From a virus: 25,995 nt of DNA. The stretch is from IMG/VR virus record IMGVR_UViG_3300021335_000075, positions 1 to 25,995 of that record; one strand, written 5' to 3'. Position 1 is the stretch's first letter. Each line of letters begins with the position of its first letter. The translations under genes were made by a program, and so were the position numbers. Under the pieces are notes generated by a model that saw only the letters and a list, made by a program, of their open reading frames with translations, was not told the DNA's origin and searched no databases. Shown here piece after piece: positions 8,805 through 25,843 of this stretch.

Positions 8805-9276
8805 AAAGAACAAACATAATAAAAAAACTGGTTCTGAGATTGAGAGATCAAATGAAAGAATTGCAGAAACTCAAGAAGTATTCACACCAATGGAAATGTG
8901 TGAAGAAATGGTTCAGATGATTTCTCTTGAAAAGAGAATGAATCCAAACTCTAAATTTCTTGATAACTCTGCTGGTTCTGGAAACTTTATTCTCGCATTA
9001 AAAAAAGAACTTCTGAATTATCATTCTGAAGAACATATTCTAAACAATATGTTATATGCCGTTGAATTGATGGAAGATAATCATAAAGAACTCTGCGAAA
9101 GAGTTGGAGTTCCTTTGGATCATCCTCATTATGTTTGTCATGATGCACTCACATATGATTATTCTTTTGGAAAGTTGGTAAAATTAGAATCTCAATTAGG
9201 AAAGGTAAAAAAACCAGAATCTTATAGTCCACCTCCAAAAAATAATGAACCTAGTCAAGCTAAATTATTCTTGTGA
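8788..9276 (+). CDS. Methyltransferase-like protein with SAM-binding motif I, no NPPY
   Basis: 162 residues from ATG 8788; ATG 8794 is an alternative. Residues 30-46 (EVFTPMEMCEEMVQMI) match the start of the SAM-binding region in HsdM/Eco57I-type N6-adenine methyltransferases. Residues 57-67 (FLDNSAGSGNF) are motif I, AVEL (91-94) fits motif II and HDAL (118-121) fits motif III. The protein then ends in a Pro/Lys-rich tail with no motif IV. It is therefore only the SAM-binding half. It overlaps the NPPY gene by 17 bp, so the two are likely translated together. Its stop codon lies inside the left half-site of the next promoter cassette. A decayed remnant is the main alternative to a working half-enzyme. 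Confidence 0.75.
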   Translation: MVMGTEKNKHNKKTGSEIERSNERIAETQEVFTPMEMCEEMVQMISLEKRMNPNSKFLDNSAGSGNFILALKKELLNYHSEEHILNNMLYAVELMEDNHKELCERVGVPLDHPHYVCHDALTYDYSFGKLVKLESQLGKVKKPESYSPPPKNNEPSQAKLFL

Positions 9277-9330
9277 CGGTCTGTGAGGTGGCACAGGGCA
9301 TCACCAGAACCCTCTGGGATGCCCTACAAT
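9273..9330 (+). promoter_or_regulatory. GTGCCA-type promoter cassette, copy A
   Basis: Left half GTGACG (9273-9278), 10-bp spacer, right half TGGCAC (9289-9294), -10 TACAAT (9325-9330) starting 36 bp after the right half starts. Between them is a strong hairpin, AGGGCATC/GATGCCCT enclosing CCAGA/TCTGG with loop ACCC (9295-9325). It overlaps the stop of the gene at 8788 and lies 23 bp before ATG 9353. Confidence 0.65.
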
Positions 9331-9352
9331 AACTTCAGTTCAAACAAAGGCA

Positions 9353-9760
9353 ATGCCTACCCTCAACAAAGAGTTTTCTGACTACTGCGCCACTCAAGAT
9401 GCCAGGAACACCATCCAACTGAATGTTCGTAAGTGGACTCTGATGCTCTGTGATGCCCTTGTGGACAACTTCAAGTCCCGTAATCACGGCAAAGTCGGTG
9501 GTTACGATGCTCCTGTGTATAAGTTCTATCCCGAAGAAGGACGTAAGTATTTCAAAATCATTATGGAGATTCCTAATGAGAACCGTGATCCTTCCCGTAG
9601 TGTTCACGCTTTCGTAGATAAGAAGACTGGTGAAGTGTATAAATCTGCCACTTGGAAATCTCCTGCCAAAGGTGTTCGTTATGACCTGCGATTGATCAAG
9701 GATCGTGAGTGGTTGCTTGAGAATGCTGACTGGGCTGGTGGTTATCTTTACAAGCAATGA
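9353..9760 (+). CDS. Conserved cyanophage-type hypothetical protein
   Basis: 135 residues, hydrophilic, with no signal peptide or membrane segment. The sequence looks like one well-folded alpha/beta domain (YKFYPEEGRKYFKIIMEIP, then SVHAFVDKKTGEVYK, which reads as adjacent beta strands). I recall similar proteins in T4-like cyanophages but cannot name a function. Its codons are clearly GC-richer (GTTCGT, CTGCG, CCCGT) than those of the methyltransferase genes just upstream. It is a single gene between promoter cassettes A and B, which points to independent regulation and perhaps strong expression. Confidence 0.85.
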   Translation: MPTLNKEFSDYCATQDARNTIQLNVRKWTLMLCDALVDNFKSRNHGKVGGYDAPVYKFYPEEGRKYFKIIMEIPNENRDPSRSVHAFVDKKTGEVYKSATWKSPAKGVRYDLRLIKDREWLLENADWAGGYLYKQ

Positions 9761-9771
9761 TATACTTTTCA

Positions 9772-9830
9772 TGTCCAGTTGAGGAACTGGTACACTGAGG
9801 TCTCTACAGACCTCTCTGATGCCCTATACT
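9772..9830 (+). promoter_or_regulatory. GTGCCA-type promoter cassette, copy B
   Basis: TGTCCA (9772-9777), 10-bp spacer, TGGTAC (9788-9793); the inner part CCAGTT-GAGG-AACTGG is a perfect palindrome. Hairpin GAGGTCT-CTAC-AGACCTC at 9797-9814. -10 TATACT at 9825-9830 starts 37 bp after the right half. ATG 9853 is 23 bp further on. Confidence 0.6.
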
Positions 9831-9852
9831 TACAAAGTACCCGAGAAAATCG

Positions 9853-10053
9853 ATGCTTTCCACCAAAACAGTTCGTAACATTGCTGATGTACTCAAAAGT
9901 GAGGTTATTAGCCACATTTATGAGAATGAAAGTTATGTCTCTATGATGCAACAAGTGATTTCCGAGGCACTTGATGCCAAAATGGGCGAAATGGATGATG
10001 AAATCCATTTTGAACTTGGAATGATTCTGTTTGACACCATCGAACTGAAATGA
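9853..10053 (+). CDS. Small hypothetical protein, first gene of a tiny-ORF chain
   Basis: 66 residues, acidic and probably mostly helical (ISHIYENESYVSMMQQVISEAL, EIHFELGMILFDTIEL), with no membrane segment. Function not recognised. It is the first gene after cassette B, and its end overlaps the next start by 4 bp (ATGA). It therefore heads a run of seven small genes with overlaps or very short gaps, reaching 11135, which are probably translated in a coupled way. Confidence 0.8.
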   Translation: MLSTKTVRNIADVLKSEVISHIYENESYVSMMQQVISEALDAKMGEMDDEIHFELGMILFDTIELK

Positions 10054-10328
10054 GCACAATGACTAATCCGACACCAGAACAATTTGTTGAGGTACTTAAT
10101 CGGTTGAAAATGACACCTGAAGAGAGGGTAATTGCTGATGCTAAAGAGAGGGGTGAAAAAATCGGCAGAATGATCGCCGACATTATCATTATCTTTCTCG
10201 CTCCAACTATTATTTGGTTGGCACTTGTCTACCTAGTTGGTTTTCAGATTGCATGGGCAAAAGTGTTTGGCATTTTCTTCATCTTCAATTTCTTGAAGAA
10301 CATCATTGTCAACAGTTTCAAGAACTAA
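10050..10328 (+). CDS. Small membrane protein
   Basis: 92 residues. The N-terminal half is charged and helical (TPEERVIADAKERGEKIG). Residues ~42-62 and ~64-86 are hydrophobic and aromatic (IIIIFLAPTIIWLALVYLVG, VFGIFFIFNFL), giving two likely membrane helices. It starts in an ATGA overlap with the gene before and ends in a TAATG overlap with the gene after. No family recognised. A role in the host envelope is possible but not shown. Confidence 0.8.
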   Translation: MSTMTNPTPEQFVEVLNRLKMTPEERVIADAKERGEKIGRMIADIIIIFLAPTIIWLALVYLVGFQIAWAKVFGIFFIFNFLKNIIVNSFKN

Positions 10329-10543
10329 TGTCTTTATTCACAAAGATTTCTATTGGTTTTGAGAGTTTAAAAGATTCACTTTATTGGTGGATTGGCATTA
10401 TGACCATGGAGAATCATCATCTCTCTGATCCTACTGATGTTGCGGCATTTTGGGTTGAGTTGAATAGTGGTTATTATCAACTTCACCCAGACGAATATAC
10501 TAAAATCTACTTTACTTTTCCTGAAGTTTATCACATTAACTAA
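10328..10543 (+). CDS. Small hypothetical protein
   Basis: 71 residues from the ATG of the TAATG overlap (10326-10330): MSLFTKISIGFESLKDSLYW... A longer same-frame reading would start inside the upstream membrane gene and is less likely. It is rich in aromatic residues (YWWIG, FWVEL, YYQLH, YFTFPEVYH) and has no clear membrane segment. Function unknown. Confidence 0.7.
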   Translation: MSLFTKISIGFESLKDSLYWWIGIMTMENHHLSDPTDVAAFWVELNSGYYQLHPDEYTKIYFTFPEVYHIN

Positions 10544-10545
10544 AA

Positions 10546-10692
10546 GTGAGAACCCCTTACATCTTTCTGGCAATCATAGGCATTATGATGTATAATGCCA
10601 TTCTCGCAAATCGAGATGCCAAAATGTTTGAAGCATATGATAGAATCTGTGCTGAGCAACCTGCAAACCCTAACTGTATCTACGCAAAATGA
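10546..10692 (+). CDS. Very small single-span membrane protein (GTG start)
   Basis: 48 residues, from GTG 10546 (3 bp after the previous stop) to the TGA at 10690-10692, which overlaps the next ATG. An N-terminal hydrophobic segment (YIFLAIIGIMMYNAIL) is followed by a short polar tail with two cysteines (ICAEQPANPNCIYAK), suggesting a small envelope protein or a cleaved secreted peptide. The ORF exactly fills the space between its neighbours, which supports it. Function unknown. Confidence 0.6.
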   Translation: MRTPYIFLAIIGIMMYNAILANRDAKMFEAYDRICAEQPANPNCIYAK

Positions 10693-10877
10693 CACCTGAC
10701 ACACTGAACTTTAACGGCGATGCTACCACCTTCCTTGGGTTTGTTGGTATTCTTTCGACGCTTCTCATTATTGTTACTGCTTTTCGTCGCTTTTACAGCA
10801 GTCCTTACAATGTTCGTGTAACTTCAAAGAAAACTGAAGAAAAAAAATTTGATCATCTACCTATGGATGAATGCTGA
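10689..10877 (+). CDS. Small single-span membrane protein
   Basis: 62 residues, starting in an ATGA overlap. One hydrophobic helix at about 13-33 (TFLGFVGILSTLLIIVTAF) is followed by a basic, then acidic cytoplasmic-type tail (RRFYSS, KKTEEKKFDHL). It overlaps the next start by 7 bp. It is one of four membrane ORFs in this chain. No family recognised. Confidence 0.7.
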   Translation: MTPDTLNFNGDATTFLGFVGILSTLLIIVTAFRRFYSSPYNVRVTSKKTEEKKFDHLPMDEC

Positions 10878-11029
10878 TTTACTTTCTAATCATTAGTGCT
10901 GGAGTTGGATGGGCATTCTTTACCTTATTTTCTGAAAAGTTTAATCATCTAGACAACATTGAAAAGCAATTTTTCAAAAATTACAATGGAAAAACTCGCA
11001 AAACTTTTACTAGCAGAGATTCAGATTGA
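10871..11029 (+). CDS. Very small membrane protein
   Basis: 52 residues: MLIYFLIISAGVGWAFFTLF, a membrane helix, followed by a polar, basic tail (KFNHLDNIEKQFFKNYNGK). The start overlaps the previous stop by 7 bp and the end overlaps the next gene by 44 bp. It is supported by continuity of the overlapping chain rather than by homology. Confidence 0.6.
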   Translation: MLIYFLIISAGVGWAFFTLFSEKFNHLDNIEKQFFKNYNGKTRKTFTSRDSD

Positions 11030-11135
11030 TAATCTGATTGAATTGCTCAAAGAGAATCAGTATGAAGAATATTTGTACTCGAAGTTAATTCCAATTAAGT
11101 GTGAAATTAAACGACAACAATCTCACTTGATTTAA
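10986..11135 (+). CDS. Very small hypothetical protein
   Basis: 49 residues: MEKLAKLLLAEIQIDNLIELLKENQYEEYLYSKL then a basic tail. The whole protein looks like an amphipathic helix pair. It overlaps the preceding membrane ORF by 44 bp in another frame. No family recognised. It is the last ORF in the chain that begins at 9853. Confidence 0.6.
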   Translation: MEKLAKLLLAEIQIDNLIELLKENQYEEYLYSKLIPIKCEIKRQQSHLI

Positions 11136-11188
11136 TTTGGTTTCGATGCTAAATTATTAGTAAGAAACTTCATTTACCTCAAATCAAA

Positions 11189-11344
11189 ATGTCTGTTTTC
11201 AAATTGATGTCTACTACTGAAGAAGTTATGCTTGACCGTAAATTGCTCGCAATGATTGAATTTGAAGAGTATGATTTGGAAGAAATGATTGAAAAGATTG
11301 AATCTGATTTTCCAGAAGAAAATGTCACCTTTGATTATGAATGA
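11189..11344 (+). CDS. Very small acidic protein
   Basis: 51 residues, strongly acidic at the C-terminus (EFEEYDLEEMIEKIESDFPEENVTFDYE). An ATGA overlap with the next gene supports it as real. Function unknown; small acidic phage proteins sometimes mimic DNA or bind host enzymes, but nothing specific here shows that. Confidence 0.6.
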   Translation: MSVFKLMSTTEEVMLDRKLLAMIEFEEYDLEEMIEKIESDFPEENVTFDYE

Positions 11345-11550
11345 TGCTTGATTTAGAAACACTTTCTCACGAGCAAAAGGAACTCCTGGCAGAAGATTGT
11401 GAAGACTTTCTTCTCCACAGGAACATTCCTTTGCGATCCCATTCTTACGACAACATTATCAATCAAGCATTGAGGGAAGGATATCAATTGTCAAAATTTG
11501 ATCGCTCTGGTCCACCTAAACCTCCAGATAATTATCCAATGTTTCCATAA
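11341..11550 (+). CDS. Small hypothetical protein
   Basis: 69 residues (MMLDLETLSHEQKELLAEDCEDFLL...), helical in the first half with a proline-rich end (SGPPKPPDNYPMFP). Coupled to the upstream gene by a 4-bp overlap. The start is either of two adjacent ATGs (11341 or 11344). Function unknown. Confidence 0.7.
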   Translation: MMLDLETLSHEQKELLAEDCEDFLLHRNIPLRSHSYDNIINQALREGYQLSKFDRSGPPKPPDNYPMFP

Positions 11551-11588
11551 TTAATTCTAAATAATCAATACTTAATTTAATTTTTCTT

Positions 11589-11990
11589 ATGGTCCCTAGT
11601 AGAATCGGAATTAAACTTTCGGATGGAACGATTCAGTCAGTTTTTCATAAACACTTAGGACAAACTGTTGCATTGGGTCGTAATTTAGAATCGCATTATA
11701 ATACTGAAGAAAATGTATCAAATTTGATTAGTGGAGGTGATATAATTTCTTGTTGGACTGATAAAAGATCTGTTCTTAATTCTGATCCAGTTTTGGTAGA
11801 TGAGTTTGGTCCAGATTACTACTCAAATATTGGTTTAGATCTTCCTTTTCAGACTCATCAAGATTTAAATGAATACCTTGCGTATGCATCAGATAATAGT
11901 GCTCACTATGCATATGTTTTTAGTGATAATTCTTGGATAGCATATAAGTTAATTGGTGAAACTTCCCCAAGATTAATTCCAATTAATTGA
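11589..11990 (+). CDS. Hypothetical protein, diverged paralogue of the gene at 12087
   Basis: 133 residues. It shares with the 142-residue product of 12087-12515 the order SRIGI-L-DG/DE, SV-H, LGR-L-HYN, V--LI-GGD, SCWT, D, V-E-GP-YYS, D, DL-EYL, DNS--YAY-F---W. The charged motif HHWDGYPEW of its paralogue reads HKHLGQTVA here, so the most conserved part has been lost or changed. It is AT-rich and lacks the promoter cassette that precedes its paralogue. Family function unknown; related phage proteins usually begin with this SRIGI signature. Confidence 0.75.
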   Translation: MVPSRIGIKLSDGTIQSVFHKHLGQTVALGRNLESHYNTEENVSNLISGGDIISCWTDKRSVLNSDPVLVDEFGPDYYSNIGLDLPFQTHQDLNEYLAYASDNSAHYAYVFSDNSWIAYKLIGETSPRLIPIN

Positions 11991-12003
11991 TATTGTGACC
12001 ACT

Positions 12004-12061
12004 TTACCACTTGAGAAACTGGCACAAGGTACCTCCCATCTCCTGATGGATGCCCTATAAT
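12004..12061 (+). promoter_or_regulatory. GTGCCA-type promoter cassette, copy C
   Basis: Left half TTACCA (12004-12009), 10-bp spacer, right half TGGCAC (12020-12025), small hairpin CCATC-TCCT-GATGG (12036-12049), and -10 TATAAT (12056-12061) starting 36 bp after the right half. The downstream bases AATTAC-AAG-GTAATC form a palindrome shared with copies D and E. Confidence 0.65.
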
Positions 12062-12086
12062 TACAAGGTAATCAAAAAACACCACA

Positions 12087-12515
12087 ATGGCAACTCGTTC
12101 TCGCATTGGTATTCAACTTGCTGATGAGTCTGTTCTCTCAGTGTATCACCATTGGGATGGTTATCCCGAATGGTTGGGTCGTATTCTGAACACTCACTAC
12201 AACAGCAAAGAGAAGGTAGCAGAACTGATTAATGGTGGTGATATGAGTTCTTGTTGGACTGAGGATCGTTTTAGTGTTGATCCCACGCACGGTTGGAAAG
12301 TTCAAGAATATGGTCCTCAATACTATTCCGATCGCGGTGAAGATTGTCCTCCTCGACTTGATGCTGACCTGTGTGAGTATCTTCTGCCTGATAACAGCGA
12401 AGAGTATGCTTACATCTTCCGCAATGGTGAATGGGTATGCTATAATATGCACGAGTTTGATGACAGCAAACTACCTGAGATTGTTGAAATTCCCGAAGGT
12501 GCTCTTGCTGCTTAA
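12087..12515 (+). CDS. Conserved hypothetical protein (SRIGI / HWDGYPEW type)
   Basis: 142 residues with N-terminal MATRSRIGIQLADESVLSVYHHWDG... and a motif HWDGYPEWLGR at 22-32, as in a widespread family of small phage and bacterial proteins of unknown role. Strong alternation of strand-like and acidic segments suggests a compact beta-rich domain. It is GC-richer than its diverged paralogue at 11589 and has its own promoter cassette C 26 bp upstream. The tandem pair implies duplication followed by divergence in sequence, base composition and control. Confidence 0.85.
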   Translation: MATRSRIGIQLADESVLSVYHHWDGYPEWLGRILNTHYNSKEKVAELINGGDMSSCWTEDRFSVDPTHGWKVQEYGPQYYSDRGEDCPPRLDADLCEYLLPDNSEEYAYIFRNGEWVCYNMHEFDDSKLPEIVEIPEGALAA

Positions 12516-12557
12516 TACTGAAGGTGGTATGCCTGTACCAACCCTACAGATAAACAA

Positions 12558-12615
12558 GTGACACTTTAATATCTGGCACAACCCCCTTGACTTTCGCGGT
12601 CAGGGGGGTTAATAT
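12558..12615 (+). promoter_or_regulatory. GTGCCA-type promoter cassette, copy F
   Basis: GTGACA (12558-12563), 10-bp spacer, TGGCAC (12574-12579), a 12-bp hairpin AACCCCCTTGAC / GTCAGGGGGGTT (12580-12591 and 12599-12610, one mismatch), and -10 TAATAT (12610-12615) at the 36-bp offset. ATG 12642 follows 27 bp later. Without the downstream -10 this hairpin could be taken for a terminator. Confidence 0.65.
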
Positions 12616-12641
12616 GTATATATCGAAATCAAACGACCCCG

Positions 12642-13832
12642 ATGCTTCTGACTCTTCGCCCTCACCAGCAACGTGGTGTTGATGCTATGCGCCTTAATGC
12701 TAAAGGGCAACTCATTATGCCTACTGGTGCTGGTAAGACTCTGACTATGATTACCGATGCTAAGGCACAAATTGACACTATTGGTTCTACCACCATTGTT
12801 GTTGTGTGCCCTCGCATTCTTCTCGCAGAGCAACTCTGTAGCGAATTCCTTGAGGTGATTGATAGCAAGAGTGTGCATGTGATGCATGTTCACAGTGGTG
12901 AAACTTCTCACTTCAGCAGCACCAAACCAGAGCAAATTCATATGTTTGCTAATGTTGCTCGCACTGCTGGTGATGCTTGTGTTATCTTCACCACCTACAA
13001 CTCTCTTGACCGTGTGCGTCAAGCAGACATCGAAGTGAACACCATTTACTTCGATGAGGCACACAATAGCGTCAAGCGTAACTTCTTTCCCTCTACAGAG
13101 TTCTTCTCTGGTGATGCTGCCCGCTGCTACTTCTTCACCGCAACTCGCAAGACTTCTGTCACTATCAACAAACCAGGAATGAACGATGTTCCTGTTTACG
13201 GTGACATCATCTGCCGTGTTTCTGCACCTGAACTTGTGGAAGGTGGTTACATCATTCCTCCTAAGATTCAAGCAAAGACCTTCGATATCCACAAGGCAAA
13301 GCAAATCAATCCTAACATTGATTGTGCCAATGTGCTGGAAACTATCGATGACACTGATACCAAGAAGATTCTTGTTTGTGTGAAGACCACCAAGCAACTC
13401 ATCAACCTGATGAGTTTCACTGATTTTGCTTCTCAACTACATCAGCGTGGTTACTCCTATCTCTATATCACCAGCAAAACTGGTGCTGTGATTGATGGGC
13501 AGAAAGTGAATCGTGAGGTATTCTTCAACACTCTCAATGCTTGGGGCAAAGACGCAAACAAGCGTTTTGTTGTTCTTCACCGCTCCATCCTTTCTGAAGG
13601 TATCAATGTGAGTGAACTGGAAACTGTCATCTTCCTCCGTAATATGGATGTGATTGAGATGACTCAGACTATCGGGAGGGTTCTTCGCTTGGGTAGCGAT
13701 TCCAAGAAGTTCGGTCTCTGTGTTGTGCCTGTTTATTCTCAGGTTGGTATTTCCACCGAGCGAGCACTTCAGCGTGTTGTTGACACTGTGTTTGAGAAGG
13801 GTGAGATGCTTGACTCTGTGGTTCGGCGGTGA
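12642..13832 (+). CDS. DEAH-box superfamily 2 helicase
   Basis: 396 residues. Walker A is MPTGAGKT (26-33); Walker B is YFDEAH (136-141); motif III is FFTAT (164-168); motif V is SILSEGINV (315-323); motif VI is QTIGRVLRLG (342-351). An N-terminal RPHQQRGVDAM (6-16) is the Q-motif-like element of SF2 DNA translocases. Both RecA-like lobes are present and no extra nuclease or methylase domain is fused. It probably uses ATP to move on or remodel DNA during replication or repair; related helicases occur in T4-like phages (UvsW-like) and in restriction or defence systems, and the exact type is not decided. It is GC-richer than its neighbours and is served by cassette F. Confidence 0.88.
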   Translation: MLLTLRPHQQRGVDAMRLNAKGQLIMPTGAGKTLTMITDAKAQIDTIGSTTIVVVCPRILLAEQLCSEFLEVIDSKSVHVMHVHSGETSHFSSTKPEQIHMFANVARTAGDACVIFTTYNSLDRVRQADIEVNTIYFDEAHNSVKRNFFPSTEFFSGDAARCYFFTATRKTSVTINKPGMNDVPVYGDIICRVSAPELVEGGYIIPPKIQAKTFDIHKAKQINPNIDCANVLETIDDTDTKKILVCVKTTKQLINLMSFTDFASQLHQRGYSYLYITSKTGAVIDGQKVNREVFFNTLNAWGKDANKRFVVLHRSILSEGINVSELETVIFLRNMDVIEMTQTIGRVLRLGSDSKKFGLCVVPVYSQVGISTERALQRVVDTVFEKGEMLDSVVRR

Positions 13833-13882
13833 ACCTGCCCTGAGCAGCACACTCGGGGAGTCTCGGATGAGTCTCCCTGAGA
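13829..13882 (+). terminator. Hairpin after the helicase gene, possible degenerate cassette
   Basis: A 13-bp stem with two mismatches, CTCGGGGAGTCTC / GAGTCTCCCTGAG with loop GGAT (13853-13882), lies 20 bp after the helicase stop. It has no T-tract, so termination is uncertain. GTGAAC-N10-CAGCAC (13829-13850) just before it has the half-site spacing of the cassettes, but no -10 is present at the expected place. Confidence 0.35.
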
Positions 13883-13975
13883 ACCCAGTCCACCACTAGA
13901 GCAAAAACCCAAAAAACTTGAAATTTCGCCCGAAACGCCCTATGGCACCTTCACCGCAATAAAAACGAGGATTTT

Positions 13976-14173
13976 ATGGAAAATGGATTTATCGTGGGCA
14001 AATGGGAGGATCCAAATGTCTATGCTGCTATACCTTTTGGTATAAGTGGCACTCAACTTATGATCATACATAAAGGTAAGCAAATTAAACTCTGTCGCAA
14101 TGAAAAATCTGCAAGGAACTTTATTGAAAAGCATCGTAAAGGAAAAAGTGTAGCAAAGTTGCCAATCGACTAA
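13976..14173 (+). CDS. Small basic hypothetical protein
   Basis: 65 residues. A short N-terminal strand-rich part (GFIVGKWEDPNVYAAIPFGISGTQLMI) is followed by a basic helical part (KSARNFIEKHRKGKSVAKLPID) that could bind nucleic acid. GAGG sits 8 bp before the ATG as a plausible ribosome site. The 143-bp gap before it holds the hairpin at 13853-13882 and an imperfect TTTCGCCCGAAA palindrome. Function unknown. Confidence 0.75.
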   Translation: MENGFIVGKWEDPNVYAAIPFGISGTQLMIIHKGKQIKLCRNEKSARNFIEKHRKGKSVAKLPID

Positions 14174-14237
14174 CTGGCATACAACTTCACACAGTTTACT
14201 CAAAAGCACCTAAAATTACTGAAGATTTAAAACTGGT

Positions 14238-14441
14238 ATGACATCAAGCAAAAAGAAGTTTATTAACGTAACTCCAAAGAGTTCAAAAGCGAAGAACCGC
14301 TTTTTTAACATTATGGATAGTTTTCATTCTTGTCAAATTGAACAGGAAACTGCTGATAAATTTTTCCTCGTTTCACTGAATCGCCAATACTGCTTCTGGA
14401 TTCAAAAATCTGGTAATGAGCATTGGAAACTTCAAAAATAA
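14238..14441 (+). CDS. Small basic hypothetical protein
   Basis: 67 residues, very Lys-rich at the N-terminus (MTSSKKKFINVTPKSSKAKNRFF) and aromatic at the C-terminus (QYCFWIQKSGNEHWKLQK). It resembles the 65-residue protein just upstream in size and layout (ending with strand plus basic residues) but shares no clear motif with it. Function unknown. Confidence 0.65.
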   Translation: MTSSKKKFINVTPKSSKAKNRFFNIMDSFHSCQIEQETADKFFLVSLNRQYCFWIQKSGNEHWKLQK

Positions 14442-14471
14442 ATATCAATTGAAGTTGGAGGATCATTAACT

Positions 14472-14639
14472 GTGTTTAACATTCTTTTGGCATCATTAAC
14501 ATCTTTTTCTTTTTCTTGCGAAGATCTAAACAAAATAGTAAGCAATATTAACAATAATAAAGATCTTTCTTTTCAACTTAAGGAAGAACTTATTGTTGAG
14601 ATTGTAAAATTTAAACCCAAAAATTGTATCATAAAATGA
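14472..14639 (+). CDS. Small protein with signal or lipoprotein-like N-terminus (GTG start)
   Basis: 55 residues from GTG 14472 to the TGA at 14637-14639. GGAGG lies 10 bp upstream and decides the start. The N-terminus MFNILLASLTSFSFSC is hydrophobic and ends in Cys16, like a short signal or lipobox-type sequence, but it lacks an N-terminal basic residue. The rest is a small helical domain (EDLNKIVSNINNNKDLSFQLKEELIVEIVKF). The end overlaps the next ATG (ATGA). I infer an exported small protein, with moderate confidence. Confidence 0.6.
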   Translation: MFNILLASLTSFSFSCEDLNKIVSNINNNKDLSFQLKEELIVEIVKFKPKNCIIK

Positions 14640-16478: not shown

Positions 16479-16709
16479 ATGTTAGAATATGCTAATAATT
16501 GCAATTCGATTATGACTAAAGAAGAATGGCAAGAACTTAAGGATCTCAAAGAAGCAATTACGCTTAGACCAGCATCAGTAGTTCCAGAAAAGCAGGAACG
16601 ATTTACAGAACTTTTGGTAAAGAGTTGGAGTTACATTAAGACTCCTTACAATGGTCCACAAAATAAAGTGTCACACCCACTTGATCAAATCGACGAAATT
16701 GCTGTATAA
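16479..16709 (+). CDS. Small conserved hypothetical protein
   Basis: 76 residues from ATG 16479. ATG 16512 would give a 65-residue protein starting MTKEEWQELKDLKEAI, which reads as the more natural beginning and is similar to cyanophage proteins as I recall them. No good ribosome site precedes either start. A hexamer TAGAAT at 16484-16489 could be a -10 for the shorter form. Function unknown. Confidence 0.65.
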   Translation: MLEYANNCNSIMTKEEWQELKDLKEAITLRPASVVPEKQERFTELLVKSWSYIKTPYNGPQNKVSHPLDQIDEIAV

Positions 16710-16733
16710 TAAAAACAATTCAAATTTAAATTA

Positions 16734-17757: not shown

Positions 17758-18321
17758 ATGACTCGTCCTAATCTGGAAAAGGTTAAGACACTTTTCAAAC
17801 CCGATGAAAACGGATGCTCAGAATGGGTTACTGTTGAACAAGTTGTTGATCATGGTTTGAATTGGTCTGAAAATGGAAATGTTCGACGTGGAGTTGCTTT
17901 TGCTGTAGGGGAATATAAATGGGAATTTGGGCGCATTAAAGGTCCAAAATCTAAAATTCTTAAAATGCGTTTGGCTGGTATCAGCAACAAACTTGCATTT
18001 AATCAAACTATTCGTAAGGACATTCGGCAAGAGTTGCTTAAGCAAACTCGATCTGCTTTTGCTCCTAATTGCATTGTTCCCCTTGCAGAGAGTGATAAAG
18101 AGATTGACCATCGTTGGGGTCGTAAGGATCATCCAAACTATGATTATATCAACGATCCTGAGAAGCAAACCATCAATGATTTTATGCTTCTTTCTCATTC
18201 TCATAATCAATTCAAACGTGAACAATGTAAGAAATGCACGACAACTAATATCCGTTATGATGGTAAAGAATACACAACTTGTGAAGGTTGTCCTCTAGCA
18301 CAACCTGAATTATACTTATGA
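17758..18321 (+). CDS. Restriction-endonuclease-like HNH protein
   Basis: 187 residues. The C-terminal half carries EIDHRWGRKDHPNYD (D117, H118), then DFMLLSHSHNQFKREQCKKC (N150, C157, C160) and CEGC (C175, C178). This is the beta-beta-alpha metal layout of HNH enzymes in the type II restriction group (HphI-like, from memory), not of homing enzymes. The N-terminal 100 residues are helical and may bind DNA (GVAFAVGEYKWEFGRIKGPKSKIL). It is the only gene behind cassette D. Downstream lie a ParB-like gene and an adenine methyltransferase, so a modification-protected nuclease is possible. Sequence specificity is unknown. Confidence 0.7.
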   Translation: MTRPNLEKVKTLFKPDENGCSEWVTVEQVVDHGLNWSENGNVRRGVAFAVGEYKWEFGRIKGPKSKILKMRLAGISNKLAFNQTIRKDIRQELLKQTRSAFAPNCIVPLAESDKEIDHRWGRKDHPNYDYINDPEKQTINDFMLLSHSHNQFKREQCKKCTTTNIRYDGKEYTTCEGCPLAQPELYL

Positions 18322-18386: not shown

Positions 18387-19400
18387 ATGACTTACTCTAA
18401 AGAGGACAATCTTGTCCTGATAACTTCTATTGCAGACAATCTTGGATTCAAACCTGATAGATCAGCGTTTGATGTAGAAAAATATATTCCAATCACTCTT
18501 TTGAAAGTGAAAGAATTGTATTGTGATTCATCATTTCAGAGACTGATTAACCGAGCAATGATAAAAAAGGCAAAAGGATTTGATGCTAATCTTTGCCGTC
18601 CATTGTATGTTTTTAAGAGACCAAATGGAAAGTATTCTGTAGTTGATGGGCAACACACTACAACCATTGGTTATCTTTATACTGATGATGCTGGAGATCT
18701 TGTAGTTCCTTGCCAAGTCAGGGAACATGATTCTAATCTGACTGAAGAAGAATGTGTTATTCAGGAAGCAAACTTCTTTAAGTTGTTGAACTTTAGGCGA
18801 CGCAATGTTGGTAAGGTTGAAAAACTTCGTGCTGATATTGCTATCGGTGATGATGAAGCACTCAAAATTGAAGAGAAACTCATATCTATGGGAGTTAATG
18901 TTGAATTGATTGGTGATCCAAACGGTCTACCAGTTTATGGATACGATAAACTAATGGAAGCACATAATAATTACAAACTTCCAAATGTTCGTAGAGCAAT
19001 TCAACTTTATGACCAACTTAATCAAGATAAAAGAGCACCAAAGTGGGATAAAGACAAAGAATTAAATGGTGGATTGATTGGTGGTCTTTCTGCAATTTAC
19101 TATTTGATTGATACCGAACTTGGTTCTGGGGATAGAGCATATGGAATGACTGTCTATTTGGAAAATTTCCTAAAAAATGCTACTCCAAAGTCATTAACTG
19201 AAAAAACTGCTGGTGTTAGTCAGGCGGTTTTAATTGCAAGAAGAATTGTTGACAAATTCAATGCTTTGGTTGAGAATGGTATTATCAAAAAGAGAAACAA
19301 TGAATCACTCCAACAAACTATTGGAGAAAAAACAATGTCTTTAGCAGGTCTAGCAGATCCCTCTAAAATTGTAGTTAATGAAAGTGAAGATGAATCTTGA
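18387..19400 (+). CDS. ParB/Srx-fold protein
   Basis: 337 residues. Residues ~35-115 match the ParB N-terminal (ParB/Srx) fold: YIPITLLKVKELYCD, then RPLYVFKRPNGKYSVVDGQHTTTIGY with the DGQH motif at 87-90, where family members usually have GQHR or GERR. The rest is helical (RRNVGKVEKLRADIAIGDDEALKIEEKL...). ParB-fold proteins bind or hydrolyse nucleotides and often act with DNA modification genes in phages. Here the next gene, an adenine methyltransferase, overlaps by 23 bp. No helix-turn-helix for parS binding is obvious, so it is not a classic partition protein. Confidence 0.75.
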   Translation: MTYSKEDNLVLITSIADNLGFKPDRSAFDVEKYIPITLLKVKELYCDSSFQRLINRAMIKKAKGFDANLCRPLYVFKRPNGKYSVVDGQHTTTIGYLYTDDAGDLVVPCQVREHDSNLTEEECVIQEANFFKLLNFRRRNVGKVEKLRADIAIGDDEALKIEEKLISMGVNVELIGDPNGLPVYGYDKLMEAHNNYKLPNVRRAIQLYDQLNQDKRAPKWDKDKELNGGLIGGLSAIYYLIDTELGSGDRAYGMTVYLENFLKNATPKSLTEKTAGVSQAVLIARRIVDKFNALVENGIIKKRNNESLQQTIGEKTMSLAGLADPSKIVVNESEDES

Positions 19401-19962
19401 TAGTGGCAAACTGATGTACTCGGAGGGTAACAACGATGAGTGTTATACTCCTGCCTATGGTGTTACTCCCATCCTGAAGTATATTCCAAAGGATGCAAAG
19501 GTATGGTGTCCATTTGATACTAAAGAGAGTGAGTTTTTCAAGCAGATTGGAGCACAGAATTTAGTCATCTCAACACACATTTCAACTGGACAAGACTTTC
19601 TAACTTATGAACCTGACTTTGAGTGGGATGTGATTGTATCCAATCCACCATTCACAAACAAACGCAAGTTCTTTGAGCGAGCATTGTCTTTTGAGAAACC
19701 ATTTGCACTGATTATGACTAACACTTGGTTGAATGATAGTGCTCCAAAGCAGTTGTTCAAGGATAAGGACTTGCAGTTGTTGATGTTTGATAAGCGGATG
19801 AAGTTTCATAGCCCTGATGGTCGTCCAAATGATAAGATTACGTTCAGTAGTAGTTACTATTGCTGGAACTTTCTACCAAAACAAATCATTATGGAGGAGT
19901 TGGATGTGCCATCTTCCAAACTGGCACAGAGGTCACTCAGCAGTGCCCGTTTGCCTGTATGA
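19378..19962 (+). CDS. Phage DNA N6-adenine methyltransferase-like protein (NPPF)
   Basis: 194 residues from ATG 19378; ATG 19390 and 19414 (MYSEGNNDECYTP) are alternatives. ECYTPAYGVTPIL (21-33) and KVWCPFDTKESEF (41-53) correspond to the target-facing start and the unusual motif I of a phage Dam-like family, and DVIVSNPPF (84-92) is motif IV. The length fits this compact single-domain family. It likely methylates adenine, protecting phage DNA or marking it for its partner genes. It overlaps the ParB-like gene by 23 bp. Its 3' end contains the left and right half-sites of cassette E, so coding and control sequence are shared. Confidence 0.8.
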   Translation: MKVKMNLDSGKLMYSEGNNDECYTPAYGVTPILKYIPKDAKVWCPFDTKESEFFKQIGAQNLVISTHISTGQDFLTYEPDFEWDVIVSNPPFTNKRKFFERALSFEKPFALIMTNTWLNDSAPKQLFKDKDLQLLMFDKRMKFHSPDGRPNDKITFSSSYYCWNFLPKQIIMEELDVPSSKLAQRSLSSARLPV

Positions 19963-19963
19963 T
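19906..19963 (+). promoter_or_regulatory. GTGCCA-type promoter cassette, copy E (best match)
   Basis: GTGCCA (19906-19911), exact 10-bp spacer, TGGCAC (19922-19927), small hairpin CACT-CAGC-AGTG (19934-19945), -10 TATGAT (19958-19963) at the 36-bp offset, merged with GATTAC-AAG-GTAATC. The inverted repeat is perfect and lies wholly inside the methyltransferase coding sequence. Confidence 0.7.
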
Positions 19964-19989
19964 TACAAGGTAATCAAGAGAACGACCCA

Positions 19990-20232
19990 ATGCGCCTTCT
20001 GACCTCTGCCACTCAGATCGACTTCTACCCTGTTGCTGGTGGCAAGCGTTTCGTCAAGCGTGTCATCTGGCACCCCACTGAAGAGATCTCTCAGCAGATG
20101 ACTTCTTTCAGCACCCGTGTCAAGTCTGATGCTCTCTACGACATCCGTAACTACCTTGCTAACGGTGCTGAGGTTATTGACTTCAACGTTGAAGAGTACA
20201 GCGGTAAGGATTACTCTCCTGTTTACTGTTGA
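19990..20232 (+). CDS. Small hypothetical protein, GC-rich codons
   Basis: 80 residues, soluble, probably alpha/beta (QIDFYPVAGGKRFVKRVIWHP, then STRVKSDALYDIRNYLANGAEVIDFNVEEY). Codon use (CTGACC, CGTGTC, ATCCGT) is markedly GC-richer than in genes on either side. It is a single gene between cassette E and a hairpin at 20242-20272, so it forms its own transcription unit. Function unknown. Confidence 0.8.
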   Translation: MRLLTSATQIDFYPVAGGKRFVKRVIWHPTEEISQQMTSFSTRVKSDALYDIRNYLANGAEVIDFNVEEYSGKDYSPVYC

Positions 20233-22184: not shown

Positions 22185-22582
22185 AATTTCTAGCACTTGC
22201 ATTTGCTGCTGTTACTCTTATGCCCACCGCAGCATTTGCCGAACATCGTCGATCTGTATATACTCATCGATCTGAATACTGTCAAAGGTATCAGGTAAGA
22301 GAAGAGTATATTCCTGGAAGGTATGATGCTCACGGTAGGTATCAAAAAGGATATGTACAAATCTTCCGTGACGAAGCACCTTGTTGGCGTCATCGTCAAG
22401 AAAGGTATGAAAATCGTTATCGTCAAGAAAGGTATGAACACTCCTCTTGCCGCACAACTCCTACTGTTCTAGGTGGTTTGTTAGGTGGTGGTATTGCTGC
22501 TGGTATTTCAAAGAAAGATGCTTATGCTTGGTCAGTTCCTGTAGGTGCTGCTGTCGGTGGTGCACTGATTGGATGTACATAA
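22181..22582 (+). CDS. Exported protein with glycine-zipper C-terminus
   Basis: 133 residues. Residues 1-20 are a clear signal peptide ending in AFA before EH. Residues 21-90 are Arg/Tyr-rich with an internal repeat (RQERYENRYRQERYE) and four cysteines. Residues ~96-132 are a glycine-zipper 2TM-like segment (LGGLLGGGIAAGIS, VPVGAAVGGALIGC). Glycine-zipper proteins insert in or span membranes, so a role at the host periplasm or outer membrane, for instance in lysis or superinfection exclusion, is plausible but unproven. The last 61 bp are also read on the other strand by the GIY-YIG gene. Confidence 0.8.
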   Translation: MKFLALAFAAVTLMPTAAFAEHRRSVYTHRSEYCQRYQVREEYIPGRYDAHGRYQKGYVQIFRDEAPCWRHRQERYENRYRQERYEHSSCRTTPTVLGGLLGGGIAAGISKKDAYAWSVPVGAAVGGALIGCT

Positions 22583-23298
22583 AACCAATAACACCCACAC
22601 CAACTATACTTATGTGGATGTTTCAATGATTTGTGACATCCACTCTGACAACCCTCTAATGTATCACAAGCTTCTCTGATACTGTTAAATGTAAACCTTA
22701 TTCTATTGGTGCGCTTATCTAATCCATATATTTGTTTTGATATAGGACGATCATCTATTTTTATAATACGGTGACCTTTTACTTTCCATCCATTATTCAT
22801 TGAACGTGAAAGGTTAGAAGGAATTACACCTAATGCTTCTGCACATTCAATTAAACTCTCATACACATTCTCTTCAAGTGTATCGACGTTTATAGTCTTA
22901 ATTGCTCTTTTATGATGTAATCCACAGTGCTTATATGTTCTATTCCCAAAAGGTGATTTCTTTTTCTTAGGTTTGACTTCAACTGTAGGTTCTGATATAA
23001 TAGGAGAAGGATCAATGATGTTCTTAGGTTTAATGTTATATCCTTTATTGTAAGCATCATACTGTTCTATCCAATAAGATAGTTTCTCATTCAATAAGGA
23101 TTCATGACATTCTTCTAAGACCTTTAAAGTAAAGTTACCAGCACCATATTTCCTTATTGCTTTATACAATGCCTTTGAAGACATTCTGTTTGCTATATCT
23201 AAATGTTCCTTCCATTCCTTATTCAATTGTTTGGTAGTTGATCCAATGTAGTGCTTATCTGCATCTCTAGAGTAGATAGAGTATATTAATCCTTGCAT
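22522..23298 (-). CDS. GIY-YIG homing-endonuclease-like protein, catalytic residues changed
   Basis: 258 residues on the minus strand. Residues 1-90 form the GIY-YIG module: GLIYSIY (3-9), YIG (17-19), H32, and WIEQY...NKGYNI. At the place of I-TevI Arg27 the protein has Glu28, and at the place of Glu75 it has Leu73, as aligned from memory. Two NUMOD/IENR-like DNA-binding repeats follow: KTINVDTLEENVYESLIECAEALGVIPSNLSRSMNNGWKVKGHRI and IYGLDKRTNRIRFTFNSIREACDTL. The last ~20 residues are encoded antisense to the exported-protein gene. The only minus-strand gene here, it fits a mobile element insertion. It may be a decaying, inactive nuclease. Confidence 0.85.
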   Translation of the reverse strand: MQGLIYSIYSRDADKHYIGSTTKQLNKEWKEHLDIANRMSSKALYKAIRKYGAGNFTLKVLEECHESLLNEKLSYWIEQYDAYNKGYNIKPKNIIDPSPIISEPTVEVKPKKKKSPFGNRTYKHCGLHHKRAIKTINVDTLEENVYESLIECAEALGVIPSNLSRSMNNGWKVKGHRIIKIDDRPISKQIYGLDKRTNRIRFTFNSIREACDTLEGCQSGCHKSLKHPHKYSWCGCYWFYVHPISAPPTAAPTGTDQA

Positions 23299-23404: not shown

Positions 23405-23434
23405 ACTTCTTGTCTTTTATATGGTTCGTAATGT

Positions 23435-23569
23435 CTTTAGAAATCCTTCTTAATTCCCTTAGAAATCCTTCTTAATCCCCTTAGAAATCCTTCTTAATTC
23501 CCTCTTAATTCCCTTAGAAATCCTTCTTAATCCCCTTAGAAATTCCCTTAGAAATCCTCAGGATCTTAG
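23435..23569. repeat. 22-bp tandem repeat, unit CTTAGAAATCCTTCTTAATYCC
   Basis: Four nearly complete units plus shortened copies (CTCTTAATTCC, CTTAGAAATTCC, CTTAGAAATCC). Read on the minus strand it is AAGGATTTCTAAGGGGATTAAG, so the leader of the leftward GIY-YIG transcript would contain many AAGGA and AAGGGG Shine-Dalgarno-like stretches with no start codon. Confidence 0.85.
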
Positions 23570-23585
23570 TGATTTTAGACCGCTC

Positions 23586-23614
23586 ATTATAACACGAGGG
23601 CGCGAAAAAGTCAA
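23586..23614 (-). promoter_or_regulatory. Leftward sigma70-type promoter
   Basis: On the minus strand, TTGACT (23614-23609), a 17-bp spacer and TATAAT (23591-23586). It directs transcription through the 22-bp tandem repeats toward the GIY-YIG gene about 290 bp away. The -35 lies inside a 16-bp direct repeat. Confidence 0.65.
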
Positions 23615-23640
23615 GGGGGCGCGAAAAAGTCACAGGGCGC
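23598..23640. repeat. 16-bp direct repeats GGGCGCGAAAAAGTCA at the leftward promoter
   Basis: Two exact copies (23598-23613 and 23617-23632; period 19) and a third GGGCGC at 23635-23640. The first covers part of the promoter spacer and most of the -35; the others lie just upstream. The placement and GC-rich contrast suggest operators. Confidence 0.75.
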
Positions 23641-23673
23641 ACACATAAAAACACACAGAGAGTTGACAAAAAC

Positions 23674-24055
23674 ACTACGAGATCCTGCGTGTCTTATTAC
23701 GAGATTGCGCTACGAGATATACACACTACGAGATATACACACTACGAGATATACACATATAACATAAGTACCATATACAATACGAGATATACACATATCT
23801 TATAACATACGAGATATAACATACGAGATATAACATATCTTATAACATACGAGATATAACATAAGTATCATATACAATACGAGATATACACATATCTTAT
23901 AACATAAAAGATATAACATAAAAGATATAACATAAAAGATATAACATAAAAGATATAACATGCTTCGAGATTATGTGTGTGCTTGTGTGTGATATGTGTA
24001 TATGAACACGAGATATGCACACAATTGCACATAACATAATATATAAAAATACGAG
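23674..24055. repeat. TACGAGATATA / AAAAGATATAACAT repeat field
   Basis: Ten TACGAGAT copies between about 23675 and 23885, three at a 16-bp period (23711, 23727, 23743, unit TACGAGATATACACAC), others at 14, 26 or 30 bp. Four tandem AAAAGATATAACAT units (14-bp period) follow at about 23905-23961, then three diverged copies (TTCGAGATT, CACGAGATATG, TACGAGAGA). Iteron-like and AT-rich; origin, protein-binding array or recombination site are all possible. Confidence 0.85.
23757..23906. repeat. 53-bp direct repeat pair inside the repeat field
   Basis: Copies at 23757-23809 and 23854-23906 (offset 97) differ at one base (C or T in TAYCATATAC). Each holds one TACGAGATATACACATATC unit. This shows recent segmental duplication in addition to the short-period repeats. 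Confidence 0.85.
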
Positions 24056-24099
24056 AGACTCACACACAATGTGACAGTTCTAGAAGTGGTTTCTAGACA

Positions 24100-24128
24100 T
24101 TGACTTCCTTATGCTTGCCTAGTATAAT
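24100..24128 (+). promoter_or_regulatory. Sigma70-type promoter for the gene at 24156
   Basis: TTGACT (24100-24105), 17-bp spacer, TATAAT (24123-24128). Two TTCTAGA elements (24078-24097) form an inverted repeat just upstream. AAGGAG at 24139-24144 precedes ATG 24156. Confidence 0.75.
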
Positions 24129-24155: not shown

Positions 24156-24329
24156 ATGCCCAGCATTCACTCAACGAGTTCAAAGGTAAAGTATCGCATA
24201 ACATTGGAACTTGATGTTTTCCAAGATATGAACCCTCATCAGATTCAATGGGATAAACTGCTTGAACTTGAACCTGCGGAGAAGATTAGCGCATATGTGG
24301 AGGATTTGTCAACCCCTGATAGATGGTAA
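24156..24329 (+). CDS. Small hypothetical protein
   Basis: 57 residues (MPSIHSTSSKVKYRITLELDVFQDMNPHQIQWDKLLELE...). A beta strand followed by an acidic amphipathic helix suggests a small alpha/beta protein. The start is fixed by AAGGAG 11 bp upstream and by a near-consensus promoter. Host-like promoter strength hints at early expression (inference). Function unknown. Confidence 0.7.
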   Translation: MPSIHSTSSKVKYRITLELDVFQDMNPHQIQWDKLLELEPAEKISAYVEDLSTPDRW

Positions 24330-24402: not shown

Positions 24403-24405
24403 AAA

Positions 24406-24596: not shown

Positions 24597-24654
24597 GTGC
24601 CAATATCTGAACTGCACACTATAAACCCCATTCGTACCTCGGATGGGGTATTGT
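24597..24654 (+). promoter_or_regulatory. GTGCCA-type promoter cassette, copy H
   Basis: GTGCCA (24597-24602), 10-bp spacer, TGCACA (24613-24618), a 10-bp stem hairpin ACCCCATTCG / CGGATGGGGT with a 5-nt loop (24625-24649), then TATTGT (24649-24654) at the 36-bp offset, followed by T-rich sequence. It could also work as a rho-independent terminator. Confidence 0.55.
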
Positions 24655-24676: not shown

Positions 24677-24865
24677 ATGCCTACTGCTTCTGAAGTTCAC
24701 CAGTTCGATATCGATATCGCTCCCGCACTTCGTGACTTTATGTGCGGCAATCTTTGCGACCTGAATGACATCGTGGACTGGGTTTGTTATACTTTTGATG
24801 TAAATCCTACCGATTGGTTAATCGATCGTATCACTGATGAGTATGAAGAATTCAATGGCATCTAA
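24677..24865 (+). CDS. Small acidic hypothetical protein
   Basis: 62 residues from ATG 24677 (GAGG 10 bp upstream; an in-frame TTG just before is less likely). MPTASEVHQFDIDIAPALRDFMCG..., acidic and mostly helical, with two cysteines close together (MCGNLC) and one later. A single gene between cassettes H and G. Function unknown. Confidence 0.75.
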   Translation: MPTASEVHQFDIDIAPALRDFMCGNLCDLNDIVDWVCYTFDVNPTDWLIDRITDEYEEFNGI

Positions 24866-24880: not shown

Positions 24881-24938
24881 GTGCCAATTGAACTAGTGGC
24901 ACAAACCCCCTTGTTAAACACCTGGAAATCGATTAGGT
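24881..24938 (+). promoter_or_regulatory. GTGCCA-type promoter cassette, copy G (weak -10)
   Basis: A perfect GTGCCA (24881-24886), 10-bp spacer, TGGCAC (24897-24902). At the 36-bp offset the hexamer is TTAGGT (24933-24938), a poor -10, and the ATG is 67 bp further on, longer than in any other copy. The operator is convincing; the start point is not. Confidence 0.5.
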
Positions 24939-25004
24939 TAGTTTCGTGGTTGAGAATTCTCTACATTTTCTCGCCACACATTGTTCTTCTCTACACTCAA
25001 AACA

Positions 25005-25379
25005 ATGAACATCCTTCAAATTTCTTCTTTCGTTCCTGCCATTGAGGCAATTGAAACTGTTGTTAACTACGGGACCAAAGTTTACATGTTCGCATCTGAA
25101 ATCTTCACCATTTCCGCACTTCTGTGGTGCCTGAATGCGTTGGCAACAGGTATTGAAAAGGTTTACAATGCTGGTTACATCGTGGGCACATTCTATCGCC
25201 ATCATCTACACGCTACTGTGAAAGAATGGACCATTAAGTTCATTGCTGCCGTGATCTTCGTGAGCATTCTGTTCTGGGAAGGTTGCGTGGTTCTGTATAC
25301 TCACCGCCATCAGATTCTGGCAACTCTGAATGACTATCGTAACAAGATTGGTGGTGCGTTTGTGTGTGCCTATGCGTGA
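25005..25379 (+). CDS. Two-helix membrane protein
   Basis: 124 residues from ATG 25005 (MNILQISSFVPAIEAIETVVNYG...); an earlier in-frame TTG at 24981 is unlikely. Likely membrane helices lie at ~35-53 (FTISALLWCLNALATGI) and ~78-98 (FIAAVIFVSILFWEGCVVLY). His-rich spots (YRHHLHATVKEW, THRHQ) occur between and after them. GC-rich codons set it apart from nearby AT-rich genes. A terminator follows. Function unknown. Confidence 0.8.
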   Translation: MNILQISSFVPAIEAIETVVNYGTKVYMFASEIFTISALLWCLNALATGIEKVYNAGYIVGTFYRHHLHATVKEWTIKFIAAVIFVSILFWEGCVVLYTHRHQILATLNDYRNKIGGAFVCAYA

Positions 25380-25402
25380 TATCTTCTCCAATTGAATACT
25401 TT

Positions 25403-25431
25403 AAAGGGAGGCAAAGTGTCCTCCCTTTTTT
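25403..25431 (+). terminator. Rho-independent terminator
   Basis: AAAGGGAGG (25403-25411) / CCTCCCTTT (25420-25428) with an 8-nt loop and a six-T run. It ends the membrane-protein transcript and precedes cassette I. Confidence 0.85.
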
Positions 25432-25454
25432 ATATAAACTCGGCGGCTGCCCGC

Positions 25455-25512
25455 GTGCCAGTTGAGGGAGTGGCACAAGACCCCTTGAGGTTCCCACCAA
25501 GACCTGCAATAC
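25455..25512 (+). promoter_or_regulatory. GTGCCA-type promoter cassette, copy I
   Basis: A perfect GTGCCA (25455-25460), 10-bp spacer, TGGCAC (25471-25476), and CAATAC (25507-25512) at the 36-bp offset, preceded by TG. ATG 25538 is 26 bp further on. Confidence 0.6.
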
Positions 25513-25537
25513 TAAGGACTCAAACGAAACGAACTCG

Positions 25538-25798
25538 ATGACCGTTCAATCTTTCATCACCAACCACTTCAGCGATGGAACTTTCAATGGTTGGGCAAAC
25601 TGGGAGACTTGGAATGTTGCTCTGTGGATTCAAAATGACCTTAGCATCTACAATGCTGCTAAGTATGATGTGACTTCTTATCAGCAACTGGTTCAACTTC
25701 TTCGTGATTGTGGAAGCAAAGAGACCCGCGATGGTTGCCGTTGGGATGACCCTAAGATTGACGGACTGGCAATCAACGCTATGATGTCCGATCTCTGA
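25538..25798 (+). CDS. NWETWNVALW-family small phage protein
   Basis: 86 residues with the motif NGWANWETWNVALWIQND (17-34), characteristic of a small protein family of unknown function found in many phages and some bacteria (I recall a DUF7249-type assignment). The rest is helical (YQQLVQLLRDCGSKETRDGCRWDDPKIDGLAINAMM). GC-rich codons; single gene between cassettes I and J. Confidence 0.85.
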   Translation: MTVQSFITNHFSDGTFNGWANWETWNVALWIQNDLSIYNAAKYDVTSYQQLVQLLRDCGSKETRDGCRWDDPKIDGLAINAMMSDL

Positions 25799-25843
25799 AG
25801 TGACACAAGGGGGGTTGAGATTCCCCCCATTTCGTTCTAATCT
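25785..25843 (+). promoter_or_regulatory. GTGCCA-type promoter cassette, copy J (degenerate left half)
   Basis: TGACAC (25801-25806) with a poor left half TGTCCG, hairpin GGGGGG-TTGAGATT-CCCCCC (25809-25828), then TAATCT (25838-25843) at a 37-bp offset, 26 bp before ATG 25869. Confidence 0.5.

Follow-up and report, generated by a model that had tools for sequence, protein, structure and literature searches.

Two compact promoter elements are known from T4-like phages: the PeSL cassettes, which combine a stem–loop with a promoter at gene borders and have been linked to gene shuffling, and the middle promoters of T4, in which a MotA box accompanies the -10 hexamer as an activator site replacing the -35 element. 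For Syn9 and other T4-like cyanophages, Doron et al. (2016) reportedly describe, in the abstract of their paper, a novel element that controls the early genes. Here, we analysed a repeated promoter cassette in the IMG/VR record IMGVR_UViG_3300021335_000075, the 25,995 bases of which constitute the window. About 13 such cassettes occur in the window, all of them rightward, and each comprises an inverted repeat (hereafter, the dyad), then a -10 hexamer and then an ATG. A 2010 review describes early transcription as unclear in cyanomyoviruses, which are without the polymerase-modifying proteins of T4, motA and asiA being missing (PMC2984593). On the host side, a further study reports that the GntR regulator PMM1637 of Prochlorococcus MED4, common to all cyanobacteria, binds CGRE1-containing yfr2 promoters and mediates Yfr2 induction, and that the CGRE1 motif is found nowhere else in MED4 (PMC6778093).

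The host promoters of the Yfr2 (Cyano-1, RF01701) small RNA (sRNA) family share with the cassette the dyad, its distance from the start of the transcript and the placement of the -10 (about 36–38); they drive the sRNA, whereas the phage cassettes drive phage genes, and the dyads of picocyanobacterial hosts are more degenerate than those of the phages. Like the T4 middle promoters, the cassette pairs a putative activator site with a -10, differing by its 24-bp dyad near -53.5. Like PeSL, it joins a stem–loop and a promoter at gene borders, but the dyad operator lies upstream, the hairpin is placed between the dyad and the -10, and there is no match in T4 or KVP40. We consider it fairly probable that this is a T4-like cyanomyovirus promoter cassette that copies the layout of host Yfr2/Cyano-1 promoters, is served by the host GntR regulator, and combines these properties with a hairpin and with mobility.

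Part of this may already be known. The phages of the early element described in 2016 (Syn9 and P-TIM40) carry the cassette, which stands upstream of genes in the region of small open reading frames (ORFs) of Syn9 and also in other T4-like cyanophages; likened by description, that element is probably the cassette. The statement in the original prediction that no motif like this had been described in cyanophages is therefore doubtful, given this element and CGRE1. No description of the phage motif was recognised in the literature, in searches that were not aimed at Yfr2 or GntR, and the phage–yfr2 link may already be in print.

Geometry of the cassette

Judged from its matches, the window represents a piece of a T4-like cyanomyovirus genome: 380 phage records, with cyanophage names throughout, match the stretch 8700–14500, and most of the 40 matches listed include a helicase among their named features. 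The dyad has the 24-bp consensus TGTG(A/C)CA(C/G)TT-N4-AA(C/G)TG(G/T)CACA, and 36–37 bp separate the start of its right half from the -10. The pattern GTGCCA-N10-TGGCAC with at most three mismatches has 14 matches in the window against 5.67 expected, a number reached by none of 100 shuffles. All ten places at which the original prediction had put the inverted repeat were confirmed on reading, seven of them within three mismatches and three (9772, 24597 and 25785) beyond that limit; the cassettes at 14159, 16653 and 24071 were absent from its list.

The fixed distance it had proposed between dyad and -10 was borne out, with an offset of 36 in nine of the 13 cassettes and 37 in three (9772, 24881 and 25455). 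At 25785 the script chose TCTAAT at offset 35, the TAATCT of the earlier reader lying at 37, and at 25455 the CAATAC named earlier lies at offset 36. In a comparison with the shuffled window that had been set beforehand as a test, a dyad (at most three mismatches) followed at offset 35–38 by a TATAAT-like hexamer (at most one mismatch) was found six times, each time at 36, against a mean of 0.26 and a maximum of 2 in 300 shuffles. The distance from the end of the -10 to the ATG is as short as had been claimed, at 21–27 nt in 12 of the 13 cassettes (65 nt at 24881), and the dyad centre, which had been placed near -54, falls at about -53.5 when the first -10 base is taken as -12. The cassettes at 24597 and 24881 are weak; 24597 is the weakest of those listed earlier, its right half being one base short.

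The position matrix, which was started from the window copies and whose scores in the window are not independent, contains no signals besides the dyad, a weak TTGA and the -10; neither the NtcA site (GTA-N8-TAC near -41.5) nor the MotA box (near -30) appears in it, and the predicted dissimilarity to both sites stands. The further claim that there is no -35 holds for most copies and fails for a fifth: when a TTGACA-like -35 at 16–18 bp was tested for, TTG occupied the position in 77 of 385 oriented cassettes across phages, and within the window a -35 is present at 12558 (TTGACT-17-TAATAT), 24071 (TTGACT-17-TATAAT) and 25785 (TTGAGA-17-TAATCT), with weaker TTG hexamers at 25455, 16653 and 24881.

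The exact dyad pattern matches at least 120 stretches in IMG/VR. For geometry counts the dyad was scored alone, both of its sides were examined, and six Mic1-like loci were left out. Around 653 dyads (1306 sides), a TATAAT-like -10 lies at offset 36 on 264 sides and at 37 on 160, that is, on 424 sides at these two offsets versus 3.9 per position elsewhere. The first ATG follows 21–28 nt past the -10 in 249 of the 385 oriented cassettes, and TTGA is found at offset 13–14 on 146 sides versus 8.8 per position. An apparent shift of the -10 to offset 47 (15 cases) was discarded, at least five of these being second hexamers 3′ of a normal -10.

The two halves of the dyad show no excess pairing, none of 12 position pairs reaching significance. 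Positions 7 and 16 even pair less than expected (z -6.3), and they still do so in the 325 cassettes outside the search-pattern selection (z -4.0). Because the halves do not covary, the dyad is best read as a double-strand DNA–protein site centred at about -53.5, and its interpretation as an RNA hairpin was rejected. The wider notion that it acts as an RNA or cruciform hairpin, that is, as a terminator, processing site or attenuator of read-through transcripts, draws on the fact that some copies allow a 10-bp stem with a 4-nt loop and sit at gene ends; yet one and the same dyad can serve a -10 on each side, and the dyad lies upstream of the Cyano-1 RNA start, so that together with the missing covariation this notion appears extremely improbable. 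In the phage dyads, the promoter-proximal half is the better conserved one (6.15 versus 5.31 of 7).

Positions 7 and 16 (0-based, in the 24-mer) tend to carry C..C or G..G, a bias that looks like avoidance of the perfect palindrome. In P-SSM2 (L172; record positions 66592/66613), a -10-like hexamer stands on each side of one dyad, likely forming a divergent promoter. Immediately 3′ of the -10, three window cassettes (12056–12074, 17729–17747 and 19958–19976) have in common the block ATTAC(A/T)AGGTAATC, which forms a short inverted repeat spanning the position where transcription is expected to start.

Distribution among phages

A cassette model (R1) was trained without the named phages, and its counts take both strands of the near-palindrome. 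It matches all nine cyanomyoviruses of the panel (Syn9, S-PM2, S-8S55, S-BM3, P-SSM2, P-TIM40, S-CRM01, S-SM2 and P-HM2) and gives no match in the five other phages (T4, KVP40, P-SSP7, Ma-LMM01 and HTVC008M). S-RSM4 also carries the cassette. In Syn9, seven of the nine plus-strand matches scoring above 18 fall within 44.8–53.0 kb, among small ORFs, and shuffles of this genome yield 0.2 matches above 11. A cassette precedes the helicase gene in the window, Syn9, P-TIM40, S-BM3 and P-SSM2; in P-TIM40 the annotated helicase start lies upstream of the -10, which implies a later start.

Dyads are also abundant in the unrelated Microcystis phage Mic1 (L201) and in the Mic1-like loci L014, L020, L023, L045, L055 and L069. 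A non-T4 cyanophage of this type has 49 copies in 24.8 kb, often arrayed about 56–62 bp apart, with TTGAC in many of them, again at the 14-nt offset; those inspected by eye are oriented against the neighbouring genes. Perhaps these copies serve as a sink for the regulator.

The dyad at host yfr2 promoters

To compare the phage dyad with host promoters, RF01701 loci were picked by RNA alone, 30 per group, of which 29 per group could be anchored; an RF01701 match was present in 57 of 61 Cyanobiaceae genomes and in all 60 genomes from the order of one filamentous cyanobacterium. The phage dyad matrix was scored 55–80 nt upstream of the GTGAGG element and ranked among windows of the same locus. 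At the expected place, 24 of the 29 anchored Cyanobiaceae loci and 18 of the 29 from the filamentous order have a score that ranks within the top 1%, with median scores of 1.3 and 14.0, respectively, against backgrounds of -22.9 and -22.5. In the filamentous order, a -10 at offset 35–38 is found at 14 of 21 loci (top-2% cut), versus a shuffle mean of 1.8 and maximum of 6. In six dyad-bearing cyanobacterial loci (five of the 20 filamentous-order loci examined, plus L174 from a separate scan), the Cyano-1 gene begins 62–64 nt past the dyad start, and one more such pair was found in G230.

Allowing at most one mismatch, the filamentous order has 34 sites in 21 of 60 genomes and the Cyanobiaceae 12 sites in nine of 201, with none in the reversed controls; beside the 11 strict Cyanobiaceae sites read, no -10 was found at 36–37. 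No Cyano-1 sRNA was found in 16 phage records, and no family, Cyano-1 included, reached its gathering threshold in an Rfam search of the window. One locus (L218) holds four Cyano-1 genes within 3 kb, and both of those read follow dyad-like sequence.

Finding this dyad at the corresponding position ahead of host Yfr2 genes points to a host factor. A regulator already present in the cell, most likely the yfr2 GntR protein (PMM1637 in MED4), would bind the dyad at about -53.5 and recruit host RNA polymerase–sigma70 to a -10 that begins 36–37 bp after the right half does, in most copies unaccompanied by a -35. Since the host makes this regulator, it would be available at once, and the downstream genes are therefore probably early. 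An activator or a phage-modified polymerase had originally been suggested; an activator remains the best reading, and the dyad before host Yfr2 genes speaks against the modified polymerase.

Several observations weigh against a host GntR factor and against the generality of the cassette. Strict dyad sites are absent in 192 of the 201 genomes of Cyanobiaceae, the host family of these phages, and the dyad of this family is degenerate, its promoter-proximal half scoring 3.33 of 7 versus 6.49 in phages; a -10 at offset 35–38 occurs there in 7 of 24 loci, against a shuffle mean of 2.4 and a maximum of 7. In the filamentous order, eight of the 29 yfr2 loci are without the dyad, outside the top 5%, and 28 of the 34 strict sites, among them all six of G003, have no Cyano-1 match next to them. 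The Oscillatoriales genome G003 has six dyads with at most one mismatch (L202–L207; none in the reversed control), and none of them adjoins a called Cyano-1 gene; a further host regulon is possible in this genome. The IMG/VR loci were chosen for the exact dyad, the panel phages S-8S55 and S-BM3 were selected for resemblance to the window, and the matches in S-SM2 and S-8S55 are weak (two and three, respectively). The early promoter of S-PM2 (5322–5350, before g016; cited in PMC4503421) is not one of these cassettes, the nearest one lying at 5077. We infer that CGRE1 is this dyad; the GntR link rests on the place of the dyad in yfr2 promoters.

This basis for the link, together with the many strict filamentous sites away from yfr2, which suggest that another regulon may exist, leaves some room for a different host factor, rather than the yfr2 GntR protein, as the binder. 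We give this a low probability, as a single regulator is named for yfr2 promoters, with a motif found nowhere else in MED4 (PMC6778093).

That phage dyads are nearer to the consensus than picocyanobacterial ones, and that sites with at most one mismatch are rare in Cyanobiaceae genomes, would also suit a phage protein, virion-delivered or first made, which binds the dyad, its likeness to yfr2 promoters reflecting site mimicry or a common ancestor. This seems unlikely, since a host factor already fits the common dyad and no candidate protein has emerged: the phrog_385 ‘transcriptional regulator’ was rejected as not specific, occurring also in HTVC008M, where the cassette is absent, and its Syn9 member has no Pfam match.

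The common dyad provides a named candidate for early transcription, the host GntR regulator of Yfr2. If correct, this would explain how transcription can start immediately in very different cyanobacteria, would tie infection to the light and nitrogen stress control of the host, and would predict that infection disturbs Yfr2. In a wider proposal, which we put forward as plausible yet tentative, cyanomyoviruses would have spread near-consensus Yfr2-promoter operators over their gene borders, taking over a GntR regulator common to all cyanobacteria, tying the first transcription wave to a host factor linked to high light and nitrogen stress, and perhaps drawing this factor off Yfr2.

The spacer hairpin

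Between the dyad and the -10, the spacer often forms a strong hairpin of varying sequence. The hairpin that had been reported for the window cassettes was recovered in 6 of 13, where folding of the spacer is stronger than in shuffles (p≤0.05). Across phages, the spacers of 388 one-way cassettes have a mean Z of -1.15, and 31.7% of them fold at p≤0.05, compared with 9.0% of the opposite flanks. At two-way sites the fraction is 11.4% of 70 spacers (35 sites), a few of the second -10s being due to chance. The hairpin thus tracks with one-way promoters, as expected of a terminator or 3′-end protector of the upstream gene. Where a cassette follows a gene of the same direction, the hairpin of the approximately 30-bp spacer may therefore often end or protect the upstream transcript. 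A few spacers contain textbook terminators (P-SSM2 53916 and 68505; S-BM3 2552). Against a terminating role, most hairpins are without a U-tract, TTTTT being present in 6.2% of spacers versus 2.2% upstream. Mutual exclusion of the hairpin and a -35 was not significant (odds ratio 0.60, p 0.13). In P-TIM40 (L171; record positions 50296–55025), several cassettes share a CACTACCG-like spacer block.

Mosaic junctions at cassettes

At 19906, one clear mosaic junction coincides with a cassette. Over the 300 nt upstream, identity is 0.76 with P-SSM2 and 0.27 with S-RSM4, whereas over the downstream gene it is 0.86 with S-RSM4 and 0.28 with P-SSM2; each of these phages has its own cassette at the matching border. 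At 12004, 9 of the 23 alignments over the downstream gene start at 11982–12018, and none extends further than 9 nt into the gene upstream. Overall, 47 of 286 alignment ends lie in cassette zones, against a mean of 17.2 for shifted zones, and 2.3% of shifts reach 47; this general signal is modest because L071 and L102 seem to represent a single phage and because of the way in which the IMG/VR loci were chosen. The cassette may travel with its gene, serving as a junction in gene shuffling. Together, the hairpin nested in it and the mosaic junction suggest a way in which small genes become insulated and swapped. Recombination could on these grounds (the junction at 19906 and the excess of alignment ends) be taken for the main role of the cassette, with the promoter incidental, but the tight spacing to the -10 and the ATG, together with the recurrence of this layout at host sRNA genes, reflects promoter constraints and makes this very unlikely.

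Individual cassettes and neighbouring features

All cassettes of the window are on the plus strand. The first (9273–9330) comprises the dyad 9273–9294, a 12-bp spacer hairpin and the -10 TACAAT (9325–9330), and precedes a DUF7717 gene (9353–9760) that aligns with T4-GC68 genes. The second (9772–9830; dyad 9772–9793, more than three mismatches) has a hairpin and the -10 TATACT (9825–9830) before the ORF 9853–10053. The third (12004–12061; dyad 12004–12025, hairpin, -10 TATAAT at 12056–12061) precedes a gene (12087–12515) aligning with S-PM2 g016 and T4-GC66, and the helicase gene (12642–13832) follows the fourth (12558–12615), in which the dyad 12558–12579 is combined with a hairpin, the -35 TTGACT and the -10 TAATAT (12610–12615).

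Two of the newly listed cassettes come next: 14159–14216 (dyad 14159–14180, -10 TAAAAT at 14211–14216), before the ORF 14238–14441, and 16653–16710 (dyad 16653–16674, TTGATC, -10 TATAAT at 16705–16710), before the ORF 16734–17204. The -10 is TATGAT both in cassette 17677–17734 (dyad 17677–17698, -10 at 17729–17734), which precedes a gene with a Pfam ICEA match (17758–18321), and in the junction cassette 19906–19963 (dyad 19906–19927, -10 at 19958–19963), which precedes 19990–20232 and overlaps the 3′ end of the methylase ORF 19378–19962.

The third newly listed cassette (24071–24128) has a weaker dyad (24071–24092), the -35 TTGACT and the -10 TATAAT (24123–24128) before the ORF 24156–24329. 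In the weak cassette 24597–24654, the dyad (24597–24618) is followed by a hairpin and the -10 TATTGT (24649–24654), with the ORF 24677–24865 downstream. The dyad 24881–24902 has no mismatches and is weak as a promoter (24881–24939), with a poor -10 (TAGGTT) and its ATG 65 nt past this hexamer. Likewise free of mismatches is the dyad 25455–25476 of cassette 25455–25513, which has TTGAGG and the -10 CAATAC/AATACT before a DUF7249 gene (25538–25798). The last cassette (25785–25843; dyad 25785–25806, more than three mismatches) contains a hairpin, TTGAGA and the -10 TAATCT (25838–25843), and precedes an ORF starting at 25869.

A search of the window for transfer RNA genes found none. Tandem repeats with units of 11–22, 14, 16, 40 and 97 bp occupy positions 23419–23962 and adjoin a leftward GIY-YIG gene (22522–23298). 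The overlapping ORFs 7392–8804 and 8788–9276 divide methylase-like motifs between them, NPPY lying in the former and what we take to be the S-adenosylmethionine-binding motif in the latter. The stop codon of ORF 8788–9276 is located inside the dyad of the first cassette, at 9273.

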